In this document: piece by piece, positions 4,695 through 46,758 of the stretch | How the letters are laid out: the number at the start of each line of letters is the position of its first letter | Position numbering within the stretch: the stretch's first letter is position 1 | From: a virus | Strand: one strand, 5' to 3' | DNA length: 64,000 nucleotides | IMG/VR virus record: IMGVR_UViG_3300045974_000167 | Coordinates: 19,560-83,559 of that record | Made by a program: the position numbers and the translations under genes | The notes under the pieces: model-generated | Database searches by the model: none | What the model was told of the DNA's origin: nothing | What the model saw: only the letters and a program-made list of their open reading frames with translations

Positions 4695-5191
4695 GTTACA
4701 ATCGGACAATCCTACTCATTCTTGGGGGTATACTCTTGTTCTTGGGGGTGGCTGCCGCCGCAGACCCGGATCATTTAGACCTGATTGCTCGGGCGGGGTT
4801 TTGGTACGACCACGGCGCGGCGCTTATGCTGATGTCGGCTGACCTGATTACTTTAGTTATCCTCCTAATCGTTACAATGCTACACCGAGCCAAGTTTACC
4901 CGACTTAGGATTTCTATCGAGAGCAACCGTCTAGAGGTTAAACGTCTTGGCGGCGTAGCCGAGGAGCGGAAGTCCATGCTTGACCGGGTGGAACGGCACA
5001 TTCAGACGTTGAAGGAACGTACCATGCAACTGCGGGCGTGTGATGAAGACCACGAACGCCGGGTTATGTACCTTGAGAACAAGCTCAATCTCGCCCACGA
5101 TAGGGCGGTGGCGCGGCTAGCACTTAGGGGCGATGCATGGAAGGATGATCTTGCGGCAAACCCTGATAATTTCATGCCCAAGACCCCCTGA
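4691..5191 (+). CDS. Two-helix membrane protein with coiled coil
   Basis: It starts with GTG in a four-base overlap with the preceding stop. Two hydrophobic stretches (about residues 6-25 and 38-63) are followed by a long charged coiled coil (about 70-140). It completes the run of four membrane genes after the endolysin. Function is unknown; a spanin or holin-regulator role is conceivable. Confidence 0.65.
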   Translation: MSYNRTILLILGGILLFLGVAAAADPDHLDLIARAGFWYDHGAALMLMSADLITLVILLIVTMLHRAKFTRLRISIESNRLEVKRLGGVAEERKSMLDRVERHIQTLKERTMQLRACDEDHERRVMYLENKLNLAHDRAVARLALRGDAWKDDLAANPDNFMPKTP

Positions 5192-13199: not shown

Positions 13200-14480
13200 A
13201 TGTCTACGTTCATGCTCGGGGCAAAAGCTATAAAGAAATTGGCCCTCGAACAGAATGCTCTTGCGTTCTTCCAGGCGAAATTTTCTCCTCCGATGTTCAA
13301 GGGCGAGAAAGAGCTTGCGCTGCTGGAATTCACAAGAAAGCACTATGACGAGTGCCACACACTCCCAACGATTCAAACTCTGGAAACGAAGTTCCCGGAG
13401 ATCAAGGAGATAGACGTACCCGAACCGTCGATTTACTACGTCAAGCAGATGGAGAAGAGGTTTGGATATGACCTCTTGAGCAAGGCGACGGCGGAAAGCA
13501 GGGATATCTTAAAGAAGGACGACGAAGCTGTTGAAAATGCATGGAAGATTCTGCGGGATGCCCAAAATACTTGGACCCAGCAGAAGTACAGACATAAGAT
13601 CCTAGATGTAAATGTAGACCTGCCCGAATTGCTGCTCACGCAGTACCACGGGAACCTACTGGGATCGGATATGGCCCCCGCATTCTTCGGGTGGCCGTAT
13701 CTAGACGACCTTGGTGGGATTGCCCCTGCCGAGGTTGTTTCTTTTGTGGGCCGTCCTGCTACTGGGAAGTCCTACAAGATGCTGTATTGCGCCCTCCATA
13801 ACTGGAGCAAGCGCCACGAAAACGTGCTGTTTGTGTCGATGGAGATGGGGCACCTGCTCATCGGTCAGCGCGTTGGTGCCATGTATACCAACACGCCCGT
13901 CAAGCAACTGATGGCGGGGGGGTTCTCAAGTCAGACGTTCTTGATGTTCGCTGAGAAGATTACGGATATCAAGAAAGAGCCCGCAAAGTTCTACGTTATC
14001 GACGGTAATCTCGCGGCCAGCGTAGACGATATTTACAACCTCGCACTTCTCCTGAAGTGTAGAATCGTCTTCATCGACGGTGCCTATATGTTGAGGCACC
14101 CGAACCCTAGACTCGATAGGTATACGAAGGTTGCCGAAAACATCGAATGGATCAAGCGTGTCTCGTCGGATAACAAGTTCATTACGTTCTGTTCGTGGCA
14201 GTTTGCCAAGACGGCCGTGACGAAGAAGAAGCAGAAAGGGGCGAAAGAGGGGCTAGAGGATATCGGCTACTCCGATGCGATTGGTCAAATCAGCGCCCTC
14301 GTCATAGGTATCATGCAGGAAGAGGGCGTAGAAACGATAATGAAGCGAAAGCTTGAGTTACTGAAGGGTCGTAACGGTGAAATCGGTTCGTGGGAAATCA
14401 ATTGGAATTTCATGGAGATGGACTTCCAACAGGTAGATGTTAATACCCAAAAAACCTCCGACGAATTGCAGTATGTATGA
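13200..14480 (+). CDS. dnaB: Replicative DNA helicase, DnaB-type (SF4)
   Basis: This protein of 426 residues has an N-terminal helical domain (about 1-140) and a RecA-like C-terminal ATPase domain. Walker A is GRPATGKS (184-191), the H1a/H2 element reads VLFVSMEM, and the strand IVFIDGAYM is Walker B. It unwinds the phage replication fork and normally binds the primase encoded downstream. The ribosome binding site is weak (AAGAAGG). Overlap ATGA with the next gene indicates translational coupling. Confidence 0.88.
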   Translation: MSTFMLGAKAIKKLALEQNALAFFQAKFSPPMFKGEKELALLEFTRKHYDECHTLPTIQTLETKFPEIKEIDVPEPSIYYVKQMEKRFGYDLLSKATAESRDILKKDDEAVENAWKILRDAQNTWTQQKYRHKILDVNVDLPELLLTQYHGNLLGSDMAPAFFGWPYLDDLGGIAPAEVVSFVGRPATGKSYKMLYCALHNWSKRHENVLFVSMEMGHLLIGQRVGAMYTNTPVKQLMAGGFSSQTFLMFAEKITDIKKEPAKFYVIDGNLAASVDDIYNLALLLKCRIVFIDGAYMLRHPNPRLDRYTKVAENIEWIKRVSSDNKFITFCSWQFAKTAVTKKKQKGAKEGLEDIGYSDAIGQISALVIGIMQEEGVETIMKRKLELLKGRNGEIGSWEINWNFMEMDFQQVDVNTQKTSDELQYV

Positions 14481-31053: not shown

Positions 31054-32533
31054 CAGATTCCTAGTGGTTCCAACCATCGGACTCTGGAAATCACTCGCCA
31101 CCGATAGCTCGTTCGTCTTTATGATGAACACAGTTCGGAGGCTCATAGCACGAGGTAACTATGCCTACGTCGTCCTCCCCCGTGACATCGACATGGAGAA
31201 CGTGCCCAAGATTCCAGGGGTCATGTACTTTGTATGCGACGTACCTGCGAGGGCGCTCGACACGCAGATGGGAATCGTGGATCAAGCATTCATTTCAAAC
31301 ACCTTCGGGTTCCAGTACGGAAAGTACGTGGTTGACGCTGGGATTGTTCTGCACGGCTCTCAGGTACTACCACTCAAGGCCGCCGTCCATCCTAGAGGGC
31401 CTTTTGACTGTTTTCCTGTCTTTTGTCTTGAGCAGGGTGTTAGTTGGATTGATACTGCTCCTGGGTACGAGCCTGGAAGATATGATGAAGAACTGATGAT
31501 CCTGGGGGCCTCGTATTCCTACCTCTGCTGCGTATCCAAAAAAGACCTAGGGAGTTCTCTAGAAAAGGCCCGCCACTTCAACCTTAGCCATCAACAGTTC
31601 AACATTCTTAGGGAAAATGCCTTCGCGGGTGCGGCCCCTGTAGACGTACCCCTTATGCAATCGATTGCAGCGGAGACCAAGAAGAACGACACCACCACCC
31701 TGCTCTACGCCGCCAGAACAAACAAGACCAAACACCCTGAAGATATCGTCGAAATCTTCGATGCCCTATACAAACAGAATGAGCCCATCAACATTACTTA
31801 CGTCACTCAGACTTCACCTCTCAAGTTTGATGTCATCACTAAGAGGCGTCATCTCTTTGATGAGCGTGGATATATTGAGCCCCGTACGAGTTGCGGCCCG
31901 ATGGATTTCTACAAAGAAGCCGCCAAATCCCACGTTTACCTCTGCTGGTCGGATAGCGAGAGCTTCAATGCCTCTGCTGTTGAGGCTTCTCTTCTGGGTT
32001 GCGTGTATATGTGTCACGACACTAAGCCTCATCGTGATCTATATGATGGTGATCTGGGTGGGGACGTATTTTGGCTCCGCGACAAGGTGGACGCCATAGA
32101 GAAAGTGCGCTGGGTCATCCACCACTACGAAGAAGCTTACAAGATGCAGGCTCCCCTGCGGCAGAAATTCCTCGACCGCCAGATCGAAGGCGACCTCTCC
32201 AAGCACATCCATGAGAAAACCATCGAGTTTCATCGAGCTAACGTCAAAGGGACGCCCGGTAAGCTTTATTACTATAAGCTTGCGGAAAGTGCAGAACTTA
32301 CGAAAATTATCGATGGTTGTCTGTCGAATTGGGCAGATGAAACTATCGGCCTTGAGGATGTTCTTGTTTCCTTAGAATCCCACGGCGACGCCTTCTCGAC
32401 AGACAACCTATATCGAGCCATTTCACGAGTGATGCCGGTGAACTGGAACTTGCATCAAATGATGAAGCTGCACTATAACCTCCTCGACACCTGCGACAGC
32501 CGGTACCCCCGGTATAGGATCAAGAATGACTGA
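31046..32533 (+). CDS. GT-B glycosyltransferase
   Basis: This protein of 495 residues has an N-terminal Rossmann-like start (NRFLVVPTIGLWKSL) and a C-terminal domain with LLYAARTNKTKHPEDIVEIF and FYKEAAKSHVYLCWSDSESF...SAVEASLLGC, the donor-binding pattern of group-4 glycosyltransferases (E-x7-E region). No membrane segment is seen, so it acts in the cytoplasm, perhaps on phage DNA or a nucleotide. It lies between methyltransferase, WbqC and ParB genes. A perfect palindrome is at 31656-31669. Confidence 0.82.
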   Translation: MSNRFLVVPTIGLWKSLATDSSFVFMMNTVRRLIARGNYAYVVLPRDIDMENVPKIPGVMYFVCDVPARALDTQMGIVDQAFISNTFGFQYGKYVVDAGIVLHGSQVLPLKAAVHPRGPFDCFPVFCLEQGVSWIDTAPGYEPGRYDEELMILGASYSYLCCVSKKDLGSSLEKARHFNLSHQQFNILRENAFAGAAPVDVPLMQSIAAETKKNDTTTLLYAARTNKTKHPEDIVEIFDALYKQNEPINITYVTQTSPLKFDVITKRRHLFDERGYIEPRTSCGPMDFYKEAAKSHVYLCWSDSESFNASAVEASLLGCVYMCHDTKPHRDLYDGDLGGDVFWLRDKVDAIEKVRWVIHHYEEAYKMQAPLRQKFLDRQIEGDLSKHIHEKTIEFHRANVKGTPGKLYYYKLAESAELTKIIDGCLSNWADETIGLEDVLVSLESHGDAFSTDNLYRAISRVMPVNWNLHQMMKLHYNLLDTCDSRYPRYRIKND

Positions 32534-33257
32534 GCCTCTGAACAAAGAGAATGTGATGCGGGTGCCCATCGATTCCATCGAGCCGAACGATTGGAATCCT
32601 AACCAGATGCCCTCCCACCTGTTCAACGAGCTATCCCACGACATCGAAGAGGAGGGGATGGATCAGCCGGTAGTCGTGATTGAACGCGACGGCAAACGCA
32701 TCATCGTTGACGGCGAGCACCGTTACAGGGCCTCCAAAGCTGCCGGAAGAACGGACATCCTGATCTCTGTCCGCGACTACTCGGACGACGAGGCGAAAAT
32801 CCGGACAGTACGTAGAAACATGATTCACGGCACGACTGACCCCGCCAAGTTCACGAAACTCGTCATGGACTTGAACAATCGCGGCCTGCCTATCGATGAG
32901 ATTAAGCGGCGCATGGCTACCCCTGACAAGGAATTTATGAAGATGTACCAGGGGAACACCGCCGACAAATCCAAGAAAGCAGCCGAAGTCATTGCTGATG
33001 CTGAGAAGGGGGTTGCCCAGACCTTCCTCGTCGTCAACTTGTCCCAGATGATCAGGGATATCGTTGCCAAGTTCGGGGAAACCATCCAGCAGGGGTTCAT
33101 CGCCTTCTCCTACAAGGGACAGACTCACATGCTGATTTCGATGGACCCCAAACTCCACAAGGCTATGGTTGCCTTCAAATCGGCGGCGGAAGAGGATAAA
33201 CTGACTCAGGAACAAATCTCTGAGCGTCTAGCTAATGCTCTGATGAAGGCGTCGTAA
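32526..33257 (+). CDS. ParB-like nuclease/CTPase-domain protein
   Basis: This protein of 243 residues has a ParB N-terminal fold: VPIDSIEPNDWNPN, HDIEEEGMDQPVVVIER and the IVDGEHRYRASKAAG box. The helical C-terminal half (about 120-243) contains no clear DNA-binding helix-turn-helix. Phage relatives act as nucleases, partition or transcription factors. Being a DNA-binding type protein, it is a candidate reader of the dispersed palindrome, without direct evidence. It overlaps the preceding gene by eight bases. Confidence 0.85.
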   Translation: MTEPLNKENVMRVPIDSIEPNDWNPNQMPSHLFNELSHDIEEEGMDQPVVVIERDGKRIIVDGEHRYRASKAAGRTDILISVRDYSDDEAKIRTVRRNMIHGTTDPAKFTKLVMDLNNRGLPIDEIKRRMATPDKEFMKMYQGNTADKSKKAAEVIADAEKGVAQTFLVVNLSQMIRDIVAKFGETIQQGFIAFSYKGQTHMLISMDPKLHKAMVAFKSAAEEDKLTQEQISERLANALMKAS

Positions 33258-42070: not shown

Positions 42071-42155
42071 CACGCCCCAAATGATACTTCGCACTCCCAA
42101 GGGAAATGTGCGAATGTCAAATCATTGATGCGGTGAAACCCCATGGAGGGATTTA

Positions 42156-42512
42156 ATGCTGACATACGCTGGGATGTCGTTCATGCCCCACCCACGGGGC
42201 GGGTACATGAAGTACATCTGCGAATCCCCGTCTGGGAATTCCTATACTCTGTCCCTAGACCCCAACTGGAAGGGGGCACGTTGTTCCTGCCCTGGAGCGA
42301 TTCATCATCACGACCGGGTGTGTAAGCACGTTAGAGCATTCAACGAGATGATGGCCTCCAATAACATGAATACCGCTGTAGCTGTGGCGGCAATCATGCA
42401 GCACGAGACTATGGATAATGTTAGCGAGGAGGCCAGCGAGATTAGTGACATTTCCAATACCAATCGCCCCGCCCCTGTGGTAAGTGACTACCTCAAGAAG
42501 TTGGGATTCTAA
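42156..42512 (+). CDS. SWIM-type zinc-finger protein
   Basis: This protein of 118 residues has CSCPGAIHHHDRVCKHVRAF, the C-x-C-x(n)-C-x-H pattern of SWIM zinc fingers, preceded by typical strands (YTLSLDP). SWIM domains bind DNA or proteins. It follows the CCATGGAGGGA leader and lies just before the tRNA cluster. The upstream gap carries an inverted repeat TTCGCAC...GTGCGAA (42082-42115). Confidence 0.75.
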   Translation: MLTYAGMSFMPHPRGGYMKYICESPSGNSYTLSLDPNWKGARCSCPGAIHHHDRVCKHVRAFNEMMASNNMNTAVAVAAIMQHETMDNVSEEASEISDISNTNRPAPVVSDYLKKLGF

Positions 42513-42517
42513 CTCAC

Positions 42518-42599
42518 GGTGTCCTGGCGGAAATGGTAGACGCGCTAGCCTTAGGAGCTAGTGCCGAAAGGCGTGAGGGTTCGATTCCCTCGGACACTA
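42518..42599 (+). tRNA. tRNA-Leu (anticodon TAG)
   Basis: A full cloverleaf with long variable arm. Acceptor GGTGTCC pairs with GGACACT, and the anticodon loop CTTAGGA gives TAG (42552-42554), reading CUA. CCA is not encoded. Confidence 0.92.
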
Positions 42600-42605
42600 C
42601 TTCAC

Positions 42606-42687
42606 GGGACTGTGGCGAAACTGGTAGACGCATGGGACTTAAAATCCCCCGCCGAAAGGCATCCCGGTTCGATTCCGGGCAGTCCTA
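42606..42687 (+). tRNA. tRNA-Leu (anticodon TAA)
   Basis: The acceptor GGGACTG pairs with CAGTCCT. The loop CTTAAAA gives anticodon TAA (42640-42642), reading UUA. Long variable arm; CCA is not encoded. Confidence 0.92.
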
Positions 42688-42691
42688 TCTT

Positions 42692-42767
42692 GCCTCCATA
42701 GCTCAGTTGGTAGAGCAGCGGGCTTTTAACCCGTTGGTCGTAGGTTCAAATCCTACTGGGGGTACCA
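42692..42767 (+). tRNA. tRNA-Lys (anticodon TTT)
   Basis: The loop CTTTTAA gives anticodon TTT (42725-42727), reading AAA. The acceptor is slightly imperfect with two G-U pairs. CCA is encoded. Confidence 0.92.
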
Positions 42768-42773
42768 TTTTTC

Positions 42774-42848
42774 AGTCCCTTAGCTCAGAGGTAGAGCGAG
42801 GCCCTTACAAGGCTTAGGTCGTCGGTTCGATCCCGACAGGGGCTACCA
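42774..42848 (+). tRNA. tRNA-Val (anticodon TAC)
   Basis: The loop CTTACAA gives anticodon TAC (42806-42808), reading GUA. The acceptor AGTCCCT pairs with AGGGGCT. CCA is encoded. Confidence 0.92.
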
Positions 42849-42850
42849 GT

Positions 42851-42864
42851 TGCAATCGATTGCA
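42851..42864 (+). repeat. Perfect palindrome copy after tRNA cluster
   Basis: A perfect TGCAATCGATTGCA lies three bases after the last tRNA. Confidence 0.88.
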
Positions 42865-42900
42865 GATGTAGGTTAATAGTAGTCAAACCGGTGAGAACAT

Positions 42901-43224
42901 ATGGGGGTCACCTTGATTCGTGTGATAGATAAACCCGTAGTTGTCGATGAACCCGCCGTAGTTGCACAGTCCTCCGTACATTACGACGAGCCCTCCGAGG
43001 ATATCCCAGCACACCCCTGCACGCATAATAACCTCATGCGTGTCAAGATGTTCGCTGGAGAATCTGTAGAGGAAGTAGAGGAAAAGGTCAATGCGTGGCT
43101 TTTTAAGCACTTCATTGTCAGCCCCCTCGCTATCAAGATGTCGGCGCGTCCTGGGATGATTGCTGTCCTGATTCAATACGAGTACGACCACGTTCCCAAG
43201 AAGAAGGGCGAGGATGAGGACTGA
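42901..43224 (+). CDS. Unknown acidic/basic mixed protein
   Basis: This protein of 107 residues has a ferredoxin-like alternation (RVKMFAGESVEEVEEKVNAW). GGTGAG precedes ATG 42901. No function known. Confidence 0.62.
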   Translation: MGVTLIRVIDKPVVVDEPAVVAQSSVHYDEPSEDIPAHPCTHNNLMRVKMFAGESVEEVEEKVNAWLFKHFIVSPLAIKMSARPGMIAVLIQYEYDHVPKKKGEDED

Positions 43225-43240
43225 CGCCCCAAACGGCGGC

Positions 43241-43269
43241 TTGCACCCCGGAGATACATCCTCTATTGT
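43241..43269 (+). promoter_or_regulatory. Class A promoter
   Basis: TTGCAC (43241-43246), 17 bases, TATTGT (43264-43269), preceded by the ACGCCCCAAA motif and followed by the CCATGGAGGGA leader. Confidence 0.75.
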
Positions 43270-43306
43270 CGCATCATCGACACGGCGCAAACACCATGGA
43301 GGGAAA

Positions 43307-43516
43307 ATGCCAGAACCGATGAAGCTCTCGATTAACATTGACGCGCAGGTTCGTCAGTTGGGGGAGCGGGAGTTTGAATGCTCTGTCGTGCTCACAGGTG
43401 ACACCGGCAAGCCGCATCCCGTGCTAGTTACGCGGCGCGGCGGTTCTGCTGGACAGGCTCTTTCGATTGCTGTATCTTGGGCGTTCGACTACGTTAAGAC
43501 CATGGAGGGAACATGA
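43307..43516 (+). CDS. Unknown small protein
   Basis: This protein of 69 residues has beta strands (FECSVVLTGDTGKPHPVLVT) ending in a helix. Leader-dependent start at ATG 43307. Confidence 0.6.
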   Translation: MPEPMKLSINIDAQVRQLGEREFECSVVLTGDTGKPHPVLVTRRGGSAGQALSIAVSWAFDYVKTMEGT

Positions 43517-43728
43517 ACGTTGCTACCTTTGCTGGGTTGTTCACGAATGCGAAGAGGATTGTCTCGCTGATCGGCGTCACCGAGAACAGGATTGATACCG
43601 CCGCCCGACTTCGGAAGATCGCAGGTGACGACCTTCTGATGCTTGACCTGTGCAGGGCGATTGATTCCCTGGACCTGCACCTTCGTACCGCTGGTAATAC
43701 CGACCTTGAAATTACCGTGAAGGAATAA
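43513..43728 (+). CDS. Unknown small helical protein
   Basis: This protein of 71 residues is helical. Its own CCATGGAGGGAAC leader lies inside the end of the previous gene, so it can be translated independently. Confidence 0.62.
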   Translation: MNVATFAGLFTNAKRIVSLIGVTENRIDTAARLRKIAGDDLLMLDLCRAIDSLDLHLRTAGNTDLEITVKE

Positions 43729-43734
43729 CCTTAA

Positions 43735-44094
43735 GGGGGCGAATTAGATTCGACAGATAACGCCAACATGAGATGCGTGCCGTGGTTGGTCAGCAGGCCA
43801 CGTAAAAAGCCGACCAAACGATCAAAGGCCAACGAGCCGATGGTCAGCCTCCGCGCCGTAGCTTAAGCGCGTAGGTTGCGGGGACTACGTGAGCCCCGCC
43901 GTTCTACCGGAAGATCACCCTTGTACCGGCTAGGGCGTAATTACAGGGTGCGGACCTAGGGATTAGAGGCTCGACTAGGAATGCTGTGCAAGAGAGTCCA
44001 TTGTCTGTAACCTGCCCAGGTCTACAGGGACACGCACGTAGTATCTGATGGAAACGTTGTTTGGACCGGGGTGCAATTCCCCGCGCCTCCACCA
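43735..44094 (+). ncRNA. ssrA: tmRNA (transfer-messenger RNA), phage-encoded
   Basis: The 5' end GGGGGCG pairs with CGCCTCC before ACCA at the 3' end, forming the alanine-tRNA-like acceptor. GAATTAGATTCGACAG matches the conserved 5' region, and GGCCACGTAAAAAGCCGACC matches the PK1 region of bacterial tmRNA. The reading frame starting at GCC 43828 encodes the tag ANEPMVSLRAVA and ends in TAA (43864-43866), in the same GCTTAA context as E. coli. The tag ends in AVA rather than LAA. It would rescue stalled ribosomes and tag proteins with a phage-specific peptide. Confidence 0.92.
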
Positions 44095-44099
44095 ATACG

Positions 44100-44247
44100 T
44101 TAGGGGTGGCCCTGCAAAACAGGGCATCGTAAAACCCCCCAGTAGGGTGCGACGCCCTACCTTTACACGGGTCGATGCCTCCTAAGACCCATTCAAATAA
44201 CTCTGGAGGCTTTTAATATGTTCATAGGGACAGGCCACGGCGACTAA
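44100..44247 (+). ncRNA. Structured region after tmRNA with nine-codon ORF
   Basis: Three consecutive hairpins (GCCCTG/CAGGGC near 44110, GTAGGG/CCCTAC near 44153, GGGTC/GACCC at 44169-44190) follow the tmRNA. The last loop presents GCCTCC (44177-44182), complementary to GGAGGC (44205-44210), the ribosome binding site of a nine-codon ORF at 44218-44247 (MFIGTGHGD). This could be a switchable leader. The remaining bases to 44330 show no gene. Confidence 0.4.
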
Positions 44248-44336
44248 TCTACAGCCAATCCGCCTCCCAAAATGCAGAGAGTGGGCCGCTCCGCAGCCAC
44301 TTTAATTACTGGGGAGCTACTTTTCATGGAGGAACG

Positions 44337-44528
44337 ATGGCCGCGCCTATATATCTGAACAAAGACGGGTACTTAGTTAATATGTACGACTGTACCCCTT
44401 GCCCCAAGTGTAAGGACACGCACAGATACCCGTTTCCGCATGTAAATCCTGAGTGTTGTTGCGATGATTGCGGGTTCCGAGAACCTTGGATTCGGTCTAA
44501 CGGACGGCCCGACCCGGAGGAAGTGTGA
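44337..44528 (+). CDS. Small double zinc-ribbon protein
   Basis: This protein of 63 residues has CTPCPKCKDTHRY and CCCDDCGF, a two-knuckle zinc site. GGAGGAACG precedes ATG 44337. Confidence 0.65.
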   Translation: MAAPIYLNKDGYLVNMYDCTPCPKCKDTHRYPFPHVNPECCCDDCGFREPWIRSNGRPDPEEV

Positions 44529-44788
44529 GTGACCCTCACGGCTGTACCGAAGAATCTCCGTGCAGCAACCCCGCGTTGCGTTGGGTTCACTCCGACCGCT
44601 GCCAGATCGGATGCCTGGGTCGCACGGTGAAGGGGCTGAGAGAATTAGCCCGCTCCATCGAGAAGGAACGTAACTCGTTGCTGATAGCTCTACGGGATGC
44701 GTGTATCGGCCACGCTGATGATTGCAAGTGCGCGGGCTGTGCGCTCGCTTTCGCTCCCACCGGGGCACCAGATAAGGAGAAGCCGTGA
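44525..44788 (+). CDS. Small Cys-rich protein
   Basis: This protein of 87 residues has scattered Cys/His (HSDRCQIGCLG and HADDCKCAGC) and a helical middle. GTG start in four-base overlap. Confidence 0.6.
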   Translation: MSDPHGCTEESPCSNPALRWVHSDRCQIGCLGRTVKGLRELARSIEKERNSLLIALRDACIGHADDCKCAGCALAFAPTGAPDKEKP

Positions 44789-45087
44789 GCATCAACGGAA
44801 ACTGCGGTATCTGCGGCGATGAGGTCGTCACAAAGGGACATGCCCAAGTGAGCGAATACTGCGAACGACACGGAGTACACAAGTCAACCTGCATGGATTG
44901 CCCAAACGAAGAGATCAAGCGATTGACCGCCGAGCTTGTCCGTTTTCGTGCAGTTCTGACGAATTCCCTGCGGTTCGCAGGGCACATTGGGAATTGCGAT
45001 TGGGCAGCTAGCACTTGCTCTTGCGGCTACCTAACGTGGAGGACAGACCGCTATCTAGTCCTGACCGGAAACGACGGATCCCGCTAG
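44785..45087 (+). CDS. Cys-rich protein
   Basis: This protein of 100 residues has CGICGDE, CERHGVHKSTCMDC and CDWAASTCSCG clusters, probably two zinc sites. GTG start in overlap with the previous gene. Confidence 0.62.
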   Translation: MSINGNCGICGDEVVTKGHAQVSEYCERHGVHKSTCMDCPNEEIKRLTAELVRFRAVLTNSLRFAGHIGNCDWAASTCSCGYLTWRTDRYLVLTGNDGSR

Positions 45088-45125
45088 CGCAACTGATTGC
45101 AAACCATAGAAACATGCTGTATTGT
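45088..45125 (+). promoter_or_regulatory. Class A promoter built into palindrome
   Basis: In CGCAACTGATTGCA (45088-45101) the right half supplies the -35 box TTGCAA (45097-45102). Seventeen bases later is TATTGT (45120-45125), followed by CAAATCATTG. It fires into a gene-free region. Confidence 0.82.
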
Positions 45126-45540
45126 CAAATCATTGATTGACGGATTCGCCGCGAGAGCATTTCCGAATGCCTCGTTCGCGGGGCAGGGGCCGCTGACCCC
45201 CTGCCCATTATTTACGCTGGGTCATCCCCGAAGGGTGGCGAATGGGCCGGGATAAACCGGGGCGGTGTTAACACTTCCATTCCTCTGGTAAGGAGGAAAT
45301 GCCAACCGAATCAACGGCAGCGTAGCAATCTGGTATTCGGCGGGCGCAGCGAGCCCTTGTGCTCGTTTGCGGTCCTGCTAGGGGCGAGGTTAAGGGGGCT
45401 AGCACTCCTGTTGCCGACCTGCCGGATACCGTTATCTTGGGCACAACGCCCAAGGCGGCGTAGGGCTGTACGTATCCCTCCCCCGGGGCATCGGGCAAGA
45501 GGCATCCGGCATAGCCGTGAACGGCCCTACGCCGCCCATA
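45126..45540 (+). ncRNA. Candidate structured noncoding RNA, about 410 bases
   Basis: No convincing gene lies between this promoter's start and the next promoter. The sequence is GC-rich and densely self-complementary. It has a CGCGAG...CTCGTTCGCG-type stem near 45150, GGGCAGGGG/CCCCCTGCCC near 45185, and CTTGGGC-ACAAC-GCCCAAG (45437-45455). It also has a perfect 13-bp stem GGCGGCGTAGGGC (45454-45466)/GCCCTACGCCGCC (45524-45536) enclosing further hairpins. The location next to tRNAs and tmRNA resembles large ornate phage RNAs (GOLLD, ROOL), but size and sequence do not identify it. A short ATG run at 45299 (MPTESTAA) with AGGAGG is also present. Confidence 0.6.
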
Positions 45541-45543
45541 GAT

Positions 45544-45581
45544 TGAAACTGATTGCAACCCGCAGAACGATGCGGTAACGT
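45544..45581 (+). promoter_or_regulatory. Class A promoter with degenerate palindrome
   Basis: TGAAACTGATTGCA (45544-45557) provides TTGCAA (45553-45558); after 17 bases comes TAACGT (45576-45581) and CAAACTATCG, then the CCATGGAGGGA leader. Confidence 0.8.
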
Positions 45582-45609
45582 CAAACTATCGACGGTCCAT
45601 GGAGGGATT

Positions 45610-45843
45610 GTGCTATCTGAATACGAAAAGCGGGATTACGTCAAGCTCAACGGAACCCGTTGTCCCTACTGCGGGGACGACGATGTTGGCACCTTCCCCC
45701 AGGAAGCGACAGAGGGTCCACGCAAACCTAGCGACCCCCTGGGGTATTGCGACCCGGACGGTTCGCTTAGAATCCTCGCCATGTGCGGCTGCGGCAAGAG
45801 GTGGTACGACGTTTATCGACTCCACACCCTAGAGGAGACATGA
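45610..45843 (+). CDS. Zinc-ribbon protein
   Basis: This protein of 77 residues has CPYCGDDDVG and MCGCGKRWYDVY. GTG 45610 stands at the usual place after CCATGGAGGGATT. Confidence 0.65.
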   Translation: MLSEYEKRDYVKLNGTRCPYCGDDDVGTFPQEATEGPRKPSDPLGYCDPDGSLRILAMCGCGKRWYDVYRLHTLEET

Positions 45844-46043
45844 TGCCCACAAAAATCATTGGGAAGGCGAAAGTCAGCGGCGGCGCAAAGGCGCTTGCTG
45901 TGGTCGAGTACATGATGGCATTGAACCGACTTACTCGTCTTGCTGACGAGATTGAGCGCGGGATGCACGGTTATCTGCCCGGAGGTGTCCTTGGGGATAT
46001 CGCCAAGGACATCCGCACAGTTCTCGAACATAAGGTGCCCTAA
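45843..46043 (+). CDS. Unknown small helical protein
   Basis: This protein of 66 residues; ATG 45843 lies five bases after GAGGAG (ATG 45840 is an alternative). No family recognised. Confidence 0.6.
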   Translation: MPTKIIGKAKVSGGAKALAVVEYMMALNRLTRLADEIERGMHGYLPGGVLGDIAKDIRTVLEHKVP

Positions 46044-46279
46044 TGACCAAGAAACCGGATCTCGTTGAGGTGTGTTCCCGGCTTGAGGGGGAGTTGAAGA
46101 CGGCTCAGATGCTCCACCACCAAGCGGTGTCCGCGCTTATGAAGGTTAGAAATGACCTGCGTAACGCCGAGGAGCGCGTGGAGTTGAAGGAATCCCGCAT
46201 CGTTTCACGAGATAACGAGATAGCCAGATTGCAGAAGGTCATCGTCAACATGGCAAAGACCATGTTCAAAGATGCGTAG
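46043..46279 (+). CDS. Coiled-coil protein
   Basis: This protein of 78 residues is almost wholly a charged coiled coil. One-base overlap with the previous gene. Confidence 0.62.
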   Translation: MTKKPDLVEVCSRLEGELKTAQMLHHQAVSALMKVRNDLRNAEERVELKESRIVSRDNEIARLQKVIVNMAKTMFKDA

Positions 46280-46281
46280 CT

Positions 46282-46536
46282 ATGGGTGAGTGCGTCGGAT
46301 GCGGCTTTTGCTGCAAGAAAGCCATGTGCTCGTTGGGCGTCCACTTGTACGGCATCCATAAAGTATGTCCATCTCTAGTGTTTGAAAACGGGGGGTACTG
46401 GTGTTTGACCGCGAGATCATCAAGCACATTCAGGAAGGAATTGTACGTGGGGGAGGGATGTTGTGCCGGTCTGAACACGGACAGGTTGATAATCATCAGA
46501 GCAAGGAATTCCTCACTCACTTCATCCGCGCTATGA
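46282..46536 (+). CDS. YkgJ-like cysteine-cluster protein
   Basis: This protein of 84 residues has the CVGCGFCCKKAMC start, CPSL, WCLTA and GEGCCAGLN, the cysteine arrangement of YkgJ-type metal-cluster proteins. A second, longer member is encoded at 61918. Function in phages is unknown. Confidence 0.65.
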   Translation: MGECVGCGFCCKKAMCSLGVHLYGIHKVCPSLVFENGGYWCLTARSSSTFRKELYVGEGCCAGLNTDRLIIIRARNSSLTSSAL

Positions 46537-46682
46537 TGGGGATGGCATCAGGGGATGCTGTTGCTCTTGCCATCTATAGCGCCGCCGACCGGTGCGGAAT
46601 GACCAAGAATGAAGCGCATGATCTTGTTAACCACGTTCTACGTAGTCGTAGGTCTGAGTTTCCTCCGGGGTTTATGCCGTAG
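46458..46682 (+). CDS. Unknown small protein overlapping YkgJ gene
   Basis: This protein of about 74 residues; the helical part HFIRAMMGMASGDAVALAIY looks protein-like. ATG 46458 directly follows GGAGGG; GTG 46401 is an alternative that would overlap the upstream gene by 136 bases. Both frames look coding, so the overlap may be real. Confidence 0.5.
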   Translation: MLCRSEHGQVDNHQSKEFLTHFIRAMMGMASGDAVALAIYSAADRCGMTKNEAHDLVNHVLRSRRSEFPPGFMP

Positions 46683-46683
46683 A

Positions 46684-46721
46684 TGAAATCGGTTGCACTC
46701 TGTAGAAACATACCGTATTGT
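46684..46721 (+). promoter_or_regulatory. Class A promoter with degenerate palindrome
   Basis: TGAAATCGGTTGCA (46684-46697) supplies TTGCAC (46693-46698); 17 bases later TATTGT (46716-46721) and CAAATCATTG, then the leader. Nearly identical to the promoter at 45088. Confidence 0.82.
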
Positions 46722-46758
46722 CAAATCATTGCGGCGGTAACAACCCATGGAGGGAACG

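Follow-up and report, generated by a model that had tools for sequence, protein, structure and literature searches.

GOLLD and ROOL build RNA-only cages. Both are large RNAs of phages whose function is unknown, and the expression of GOLLD increases during lysis (PMC12286853). Here we analysed a phage region of about 410 nt (positions 45126-45540) that an initial annotation had described as a gene-free, multi-hairpin RNA with a regulated promoter of its own, lying beside tRNAs and a tmRNA and perhaps belonging to an undescribed class. All positions refer to the window, which is the whole stretch of 64,000 nt that was analysed and which corresponds to positions 19560-83559 within the 83,559-bp IMG/VR virus record IMGVR_UViG_3300045974_000167. 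The promoter context of this locus, its lack of a coding signal and the strand-specific statistics of its fold give good support to an independent gene for a structured non-coding RNA outside Rfam.

The phage and the setting of the region

The terminase large subunit of the phage showed 53% identity to those of the Stenotrophomonas phages DLP_5 and Summit and 63% identity to that of another IMG/VR record (L041), and a second conserved phage protein showed 63% identity to its DLP_5 counterpart. Since both DLP3, which lysogenises stably, and DLP5, which was obtained as a phagemid, are temperate (PMC7326821), this kinship suggests that the phage is probably a member of a temperate phage-plasmid group. 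Relatives within this phage group, recognised by their terminase, were also seen on a phage-sized contig of a Burkholderiaceae MAG (L037, JAHDXY010000001.1, 95,965 bp) and on a contig of Roseococcus pinisoli (L040, 667,684 bp), the latter being long enough that it may hold an integrated phage copy. At the megablast level, no record of the phage collection matched the window between 36 and 60 kb, and the stretch from 41 to 50 kb is highly variable and accessory, with few proteins that have counterparts in the relatives fetched. The following features set the scene for the region.

42518-42848, + strand: four tRNAs (Leu, Leu, Lys and Val)
43735-44094, + strand: tmRNA (Rfam RF00023, 107.6 bits)
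45133-45540, + strand: putative structured non-coding RNA gene, its +1 placed near 45131-45134 from the position of the -10 box and its 3′ end likewise predicted

The island of tRNAs and tmRNA lies 1-2.6 kb upstream of the RNA region and is indeed its neighbour, as first described. The tmRNA was missed by ARAGORN and found by Rfam; its tag frame, read by eye from the alignment, is ANEPMVSLRAVA followed by a stop (43828-43866).

Searches for known families and homologs

At the gathering score, Rfam 15 (4227 families, including GOLLD, ROOL, RNase P, 6S, group I and II introns, riboswitches and rRNA pieces) matched the tRNAs and the tmRNA in the window, and none of its families matched the region itself. 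At E≤10 nothing credible appeared in the region, where the only match was to EBER1 (13 bits, E 4.4, cutoff 50).

No DNA homolog was found in 50,697 phages and 72,556 plasmids or in 369 genomes of the class of the Burkholderiaceae MAG, all of which gave only short GC-rich chance matches, nor in about 50 full records of relatives or at their loci with a word size of 7; the collections searched may lack near-identical records, and missing homologs are not proof of uniqueness. The best DNA match, 80% over 40 nt in L024, covered only the stretch of hairpin II (see below) within an apparent coding region and was rejected. Covariance models of domains III, IV and VI, each built from a single sequence, gave no credible match outside the locus in the 47 records searched, among which an 18-bit match in L156 was rejected as lying antisense within an apparent coding region. 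Indirect scans of IMG/VR, made with the region's translated frames as degenerate DNA probes and with the neighbouring proteins, and reaching close relatives only, returned nothing. The RNA is an orphan, known here from a single sequence, and a single sequence can look structured.

Promoters on either side of the region

Two promoters of one family flank the region.

45097-45125, + strand: promoter before the RNA region, with a -35 box TTGCAA (45097-45102), a 17-nt spacer and a -10 box TATTGT (45120-45125), followed by CAAATCATTG
45553-45581, + strand: next promoter, of the same family, predicted to drive the gene at 45610-45843 via the ATGGAGG at 45599

The family has five members, all located between 42 and 47 kb (42089, 43241, 45097, 45553 and 46693), which have TTGCAnn...AGAAACATnCnGTATTGTCAAATCATTG in common; the pattern of the five copies, which extend over 42089-46755 of the window, can be written TTGCAn-AGAAACAT-GTATTGTCAAATCATTG. 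The copy at 45097 has the top score of the family (47 bits, the five sites spanning 37-47 bits), while the sixth-best site in the window reached 10.7 bits and the top score from five shuffles was 18.8; the matrix was trained on these same five sites, which inflates their own scores, although the gap to the remaining sites is still large.

A ribosome-site signature, (CC)CATGGAGGGA, stands ahead of many genes of this phage, and its ATGGAGG form occurs 22 times in the window, mostly followed by a start codon. Four of the five promoter copies lead to ATGGAGG and a start codon within 45-60 nt. The promoter at 45097 is the sole copy with no ATGGAGG ribosome site downstream, and the copy at 45553 begins 13 nt past the RNA region. 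The initial annotation had placed a strong promoter ahead of the region and a new one right after it, and both were recovered, the former as the best member of the family. Within the sequence, nothing speaks more clearly for what would be a non-coding transcript than this order of promoter, no gene, promoter and gene.

The same transcript might instead be a cis-acting 5′ leader or attenuator, which would read from 45097 into the operon at 45610 and control it through its fold or through RNase cleavage. Long structured leaders occur commonly, the RNA is on the same strand as the gene, no strong terminator was found at the 3′ end of the RNA or between it and the 45610 gene, and a mini-ORF with a sequestered Shine-Dalgarno sequence at 45289 (see below) could be the sensor. 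However, the RNA and the gene are separated by a full promoter that belongs to this family and is followed by a ribosome site of its own, and the region matches no riboswitch or leader family in Rfam. We consider a leader unlikely.

Predicted architecture of the RNA

The predicted fold of the putative RNA gene consists of independent units, namely hairpins I and II, domains III and IV, hairpin V and domain VI.

45147-45180, + strand: hairpin I, with pair probabilities of 0.94-0.97
45181-45206, + strand: hairpin II, of 9 bp (8 GC) followed by ATTATTTA, a weak look-alike of an intrinsic terminator (hairpins I and II together, z -3.0)
45212-45325, + strand: domain III, multi-branched, with an 8-bp closing stem and five inner hairpins (z -2.4)
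45289-45325, + strand: UAAGGAGG-AA-AUG and the 8-codon mini-ORF MPTESTAA, with the Shine-Dalgarno sequence inside a hairpin
45332-45430, + strand: domain IV, with a 13-bp stem GGTATTCGGCGGG/CCTGCCGGATACC around a branched junction (z -3.3)
45398-45404, + strand: hairpin loop GCUAGCA in domain IV, containing the self-complementary GCUAGC
45436-45454, + strand: hairpin V, CTTGGGC/GCCCAAG
45454-45536, + strand: domain VI, with a perfect 13-bp stem 45454-45466/45524-45536 (16 nt at 94%; hairpin V and domain VI together, z -5.7)

The perfect 13-bp stem that had been taken to close the whole RNA is real, but it encloses only the last 83 nt, that is, domain VI. In domain III, the Shine-Dalgarno sequence UAAGGAGG is perfect and lies 2 nt ahead of the AUG of MPTESTAA, a spacing too short for an efficient start, and TAAGGAGG is present twice in the window; the mini-ORF with its Shine-Dalgarno sequence is probably incidental. 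As leads only, the buried UAAGGAGG could pair with 16S rRNA, and the GCUAGC loop, for which we estimate a chance occurrence of about 10%, is a possible kissing-loop dimer site.

Hairpin II, listed together with ATTATTTA as terminator-like, would allow for a functional RNA of only about 75-80 nt, in which hairpin I is followed by hairpin II and transcription ends there, near 45214, by intrinsic termination, the remainder being untranscribed or incidental. The U-run is interrupted, however, and sites of this kind are no more frequent than in shuffles (8 in a 16-kb region against 13.7), while the 333 nt that follow hairpin II fold more significantly (z -4.4) and contain no gene. So short an RNA appears improbable to us.

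Statistics of the fold

Over its full length of 415 nt, the region 45126-45540 folds at -200.5 kcal/mol with a z of -4.0, and 54% of its + strand bases are paired at p>0.9, compared with 20% both in shuffles and on the minus strand; by the same measure, the tmRNA reached 49% and part of the terminase gene 28%. In fold definition the region ranks first among 641 + strand windows covering the whole 83.6-kb record, and in a scan of 1636 windows with the energy corrected for composition by regression it belonged to the three most extreme loci. The many hairpins of the initial annotation hold up in the full-length fold, on which the claim of structure rests since in a 200-nt window scan the region was less conspicuous and not strongly distinctive (z -2.6). 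The other two extreme loci were found at window positions 13492-13992 and from record position 5150 onward (window -14408), and the locus at 13592 falls within a DnaB-like helicase gene.

Inverted repeats can also act as DNA hairpins or protein sites, and the perfect 13-bp repeat, the other palindromes and a minus strand that likewise folds better than shuffles (z -3.1) would fit a DNA-level element serving in replication, packaging or recombination. Against this, a dedicated promoter points at the region, the fold is well defined on one strand only, and domain IV needs G-U pairs, which the complementary strand cannot form, so that it is stable on the + strand only (z -3.3 against -0.7). Because of this strand-specific definition and the destabilisation of domain IV on the complement, we conclude from the modelled folds that the + strand RNA, not the DNA, is what the sequence appears to be shaped for, and we regard a DNA-level element as quite improbable.

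Absence of a coding signal

The six frames of the region scored -0.10 to -0.21 in a codon model for which 37 long ORFs of the phage had served as training set, whereas most neighbouring genes scored about 0 to +0.32 in frame; the frames of the tmRNA and of most tRNAs were negative, like those of the region. Its GC content per codon position is flat (0.61/0.61/0.63), whereas in phage genes it drops at position 2. A + frame stays open for about 145 codons (45141-45575) and a minus-strand ORF of 96 aa is present, but the length of the + frame was equalled in 8% of shuffles, 28 of its 145 residues are Arg, it has no ATG, GTG or TTG before 45357 and no start with a ribosome site, and it gave no Pfam, PHROG or tblastn match. 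With no conserved protein frame running through it, the region is gene-free as the initial annotation had read it, and a protein gene or a decayed remnant of one was rejected as extremely improbable, the coding signal being absent in codon score, in GC by position and in family searches.

A dispersed palindrome over the -35 box

The promoter at 45097 overlaps a palindrome.

45089-45100, + strand: palindrome GCAACTGATTGC, overlapping the -35 box, one of 26 GCAAYNNRTTGC copies in the record

The promoter had been described as controlled by this palindrome. The palindrome is present over the -35 box, but control specific to the RNA does not follow, as the motif is dispersed across the genome and the phage group. 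Indeed, GCAAYNNRTTGC occurs 23 times in the window, against 0.25 expected (for example at 607, 2092, 5198, 10234, 23315, 26019, 38964, 45089 and 50557), usually inside TGCAATYRATTGCA and about once per 3 kb, with many copies located within ORFs. It was found in 26 of the 29 records tested, with many copies in most (32 in DLP5, and 39, 30, 28 and 52 in the relatives G014, G017, G024 and G038), while a control pattern had 0-1 copies in nearly all phage records. The core of the palindrome is genome-specific, since the exact GCAATTAATTGC has 28-29 copies in G024 and G017 and the present phage carries GCAATCGATTGC/GCAACTGATTGC. A dedicated repressor palindrome for the RNA was rejected, given that the motif is one of 26 dispersed copies and is common to most of the relatives tested.

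The palindrome has the look of a repressor site of the stoperator type, or else of a ParB site dispersed through the genomes of a temperate phage-plasmid group. Searching the literature for its exact words brought up only papers on other subjects. A protein with a ParB_N domain is encoded upstream of the terminase, at window positions 32526-33257 (Pfam PF02195, E 3.6e-13), and is a candidate binder of the palindrome, which is possibly of more interest than the RNA itself.

A proposed role for the RNA

The region has its own promoter, no protein-coding ORF and a fold beyond chance, as large structured non-coding RNAs of phages do in general, and we favour the view that it is a free-standing, trans-acting structured non-coding RNA gene of about 400 nt. 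The phage would transcribe the RNA in early or lytic growth along with the accessory operons that lie close to the tRNA/tmRNA island, co-expression being suggested by the promoter type common to both, and the RNA would be silent in lysogeny if the palindrome over its -35 box is a lysogeny repressor site. Once folded, it would work in trans, as RNA or as a ribonucleoprotein particle; it might dimerise via the GCUAGC loop and might touch the translation machinery, as its tRNA and tmRNA neighbours do. We infer both the role in trans and the link to the ribosome from the neighbourhood only.

A more specific and rather doubtful proposal is that this RNA could represent, as the earliest example to be noticed, a new class of large structured RNAs in phages, unrelated in sequence to GOLLD, ROOL and OLE, which would be repressed in lysogeny and would self-associate into a lytic RNA particle by means of the GCUAGC loop and perhaps other loops. 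If true, an RNA of about 400 nt that is unrelated to GOLLD and ROOL yet shares their tRNA-island setting would mean that phages repeatedly recruit large structured RNAs, and, being small, it would be more convenient to study; the value of the proposal depends on a demonstrated transcript and on relatives being found.

Comparison with known large RNAs

The RNA shares an island with the tmRNA, is similar to it in length and has a similarly well-defined single-sequence fold, but the region does not match RF00023 and the true tmRNA of the phage is the one at 43735-44094. In OLE, a large structured RNA of bacteria, a symmetric palindromic loop makes kissing contacts from one chain to another (PMC12286853), and the GCUAGC loop would be a candidate counterpart here. 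The region has no Rfam match to OLE, however, and OLE is about 600 nt long and comes mostly from Bacillota extremophiles and anaerobes (PMC12054373).

GOLLD is phage-borne, tRNA-associated and large (PMC12286853), as is the present RNA, but its members often exceed 800 nt, against about 410 nt here, the region has no Rfam match to it even at E≤10, and its conserved 3′ region was not detected in the RNA region. ROOL is likewise a large structured RNA of phages and prophages that often lies beside tRNA islands (PMC12286853); it is longer, however, its conserved pseudoknotted fold is backed by many sequences, compared with one sequence here, and the region does not match it in Rfam even at E≤10. 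The initial annotation had likened the locus to GOLLD and ROOL while judging by eye that it did not match them, and the search with the Rfam covariance models agreed with that judgement. What stands is the resemblance in setting, since a large multi-hairpin RNA lies here, as in those systems, on a phage genome near a tRNA island.
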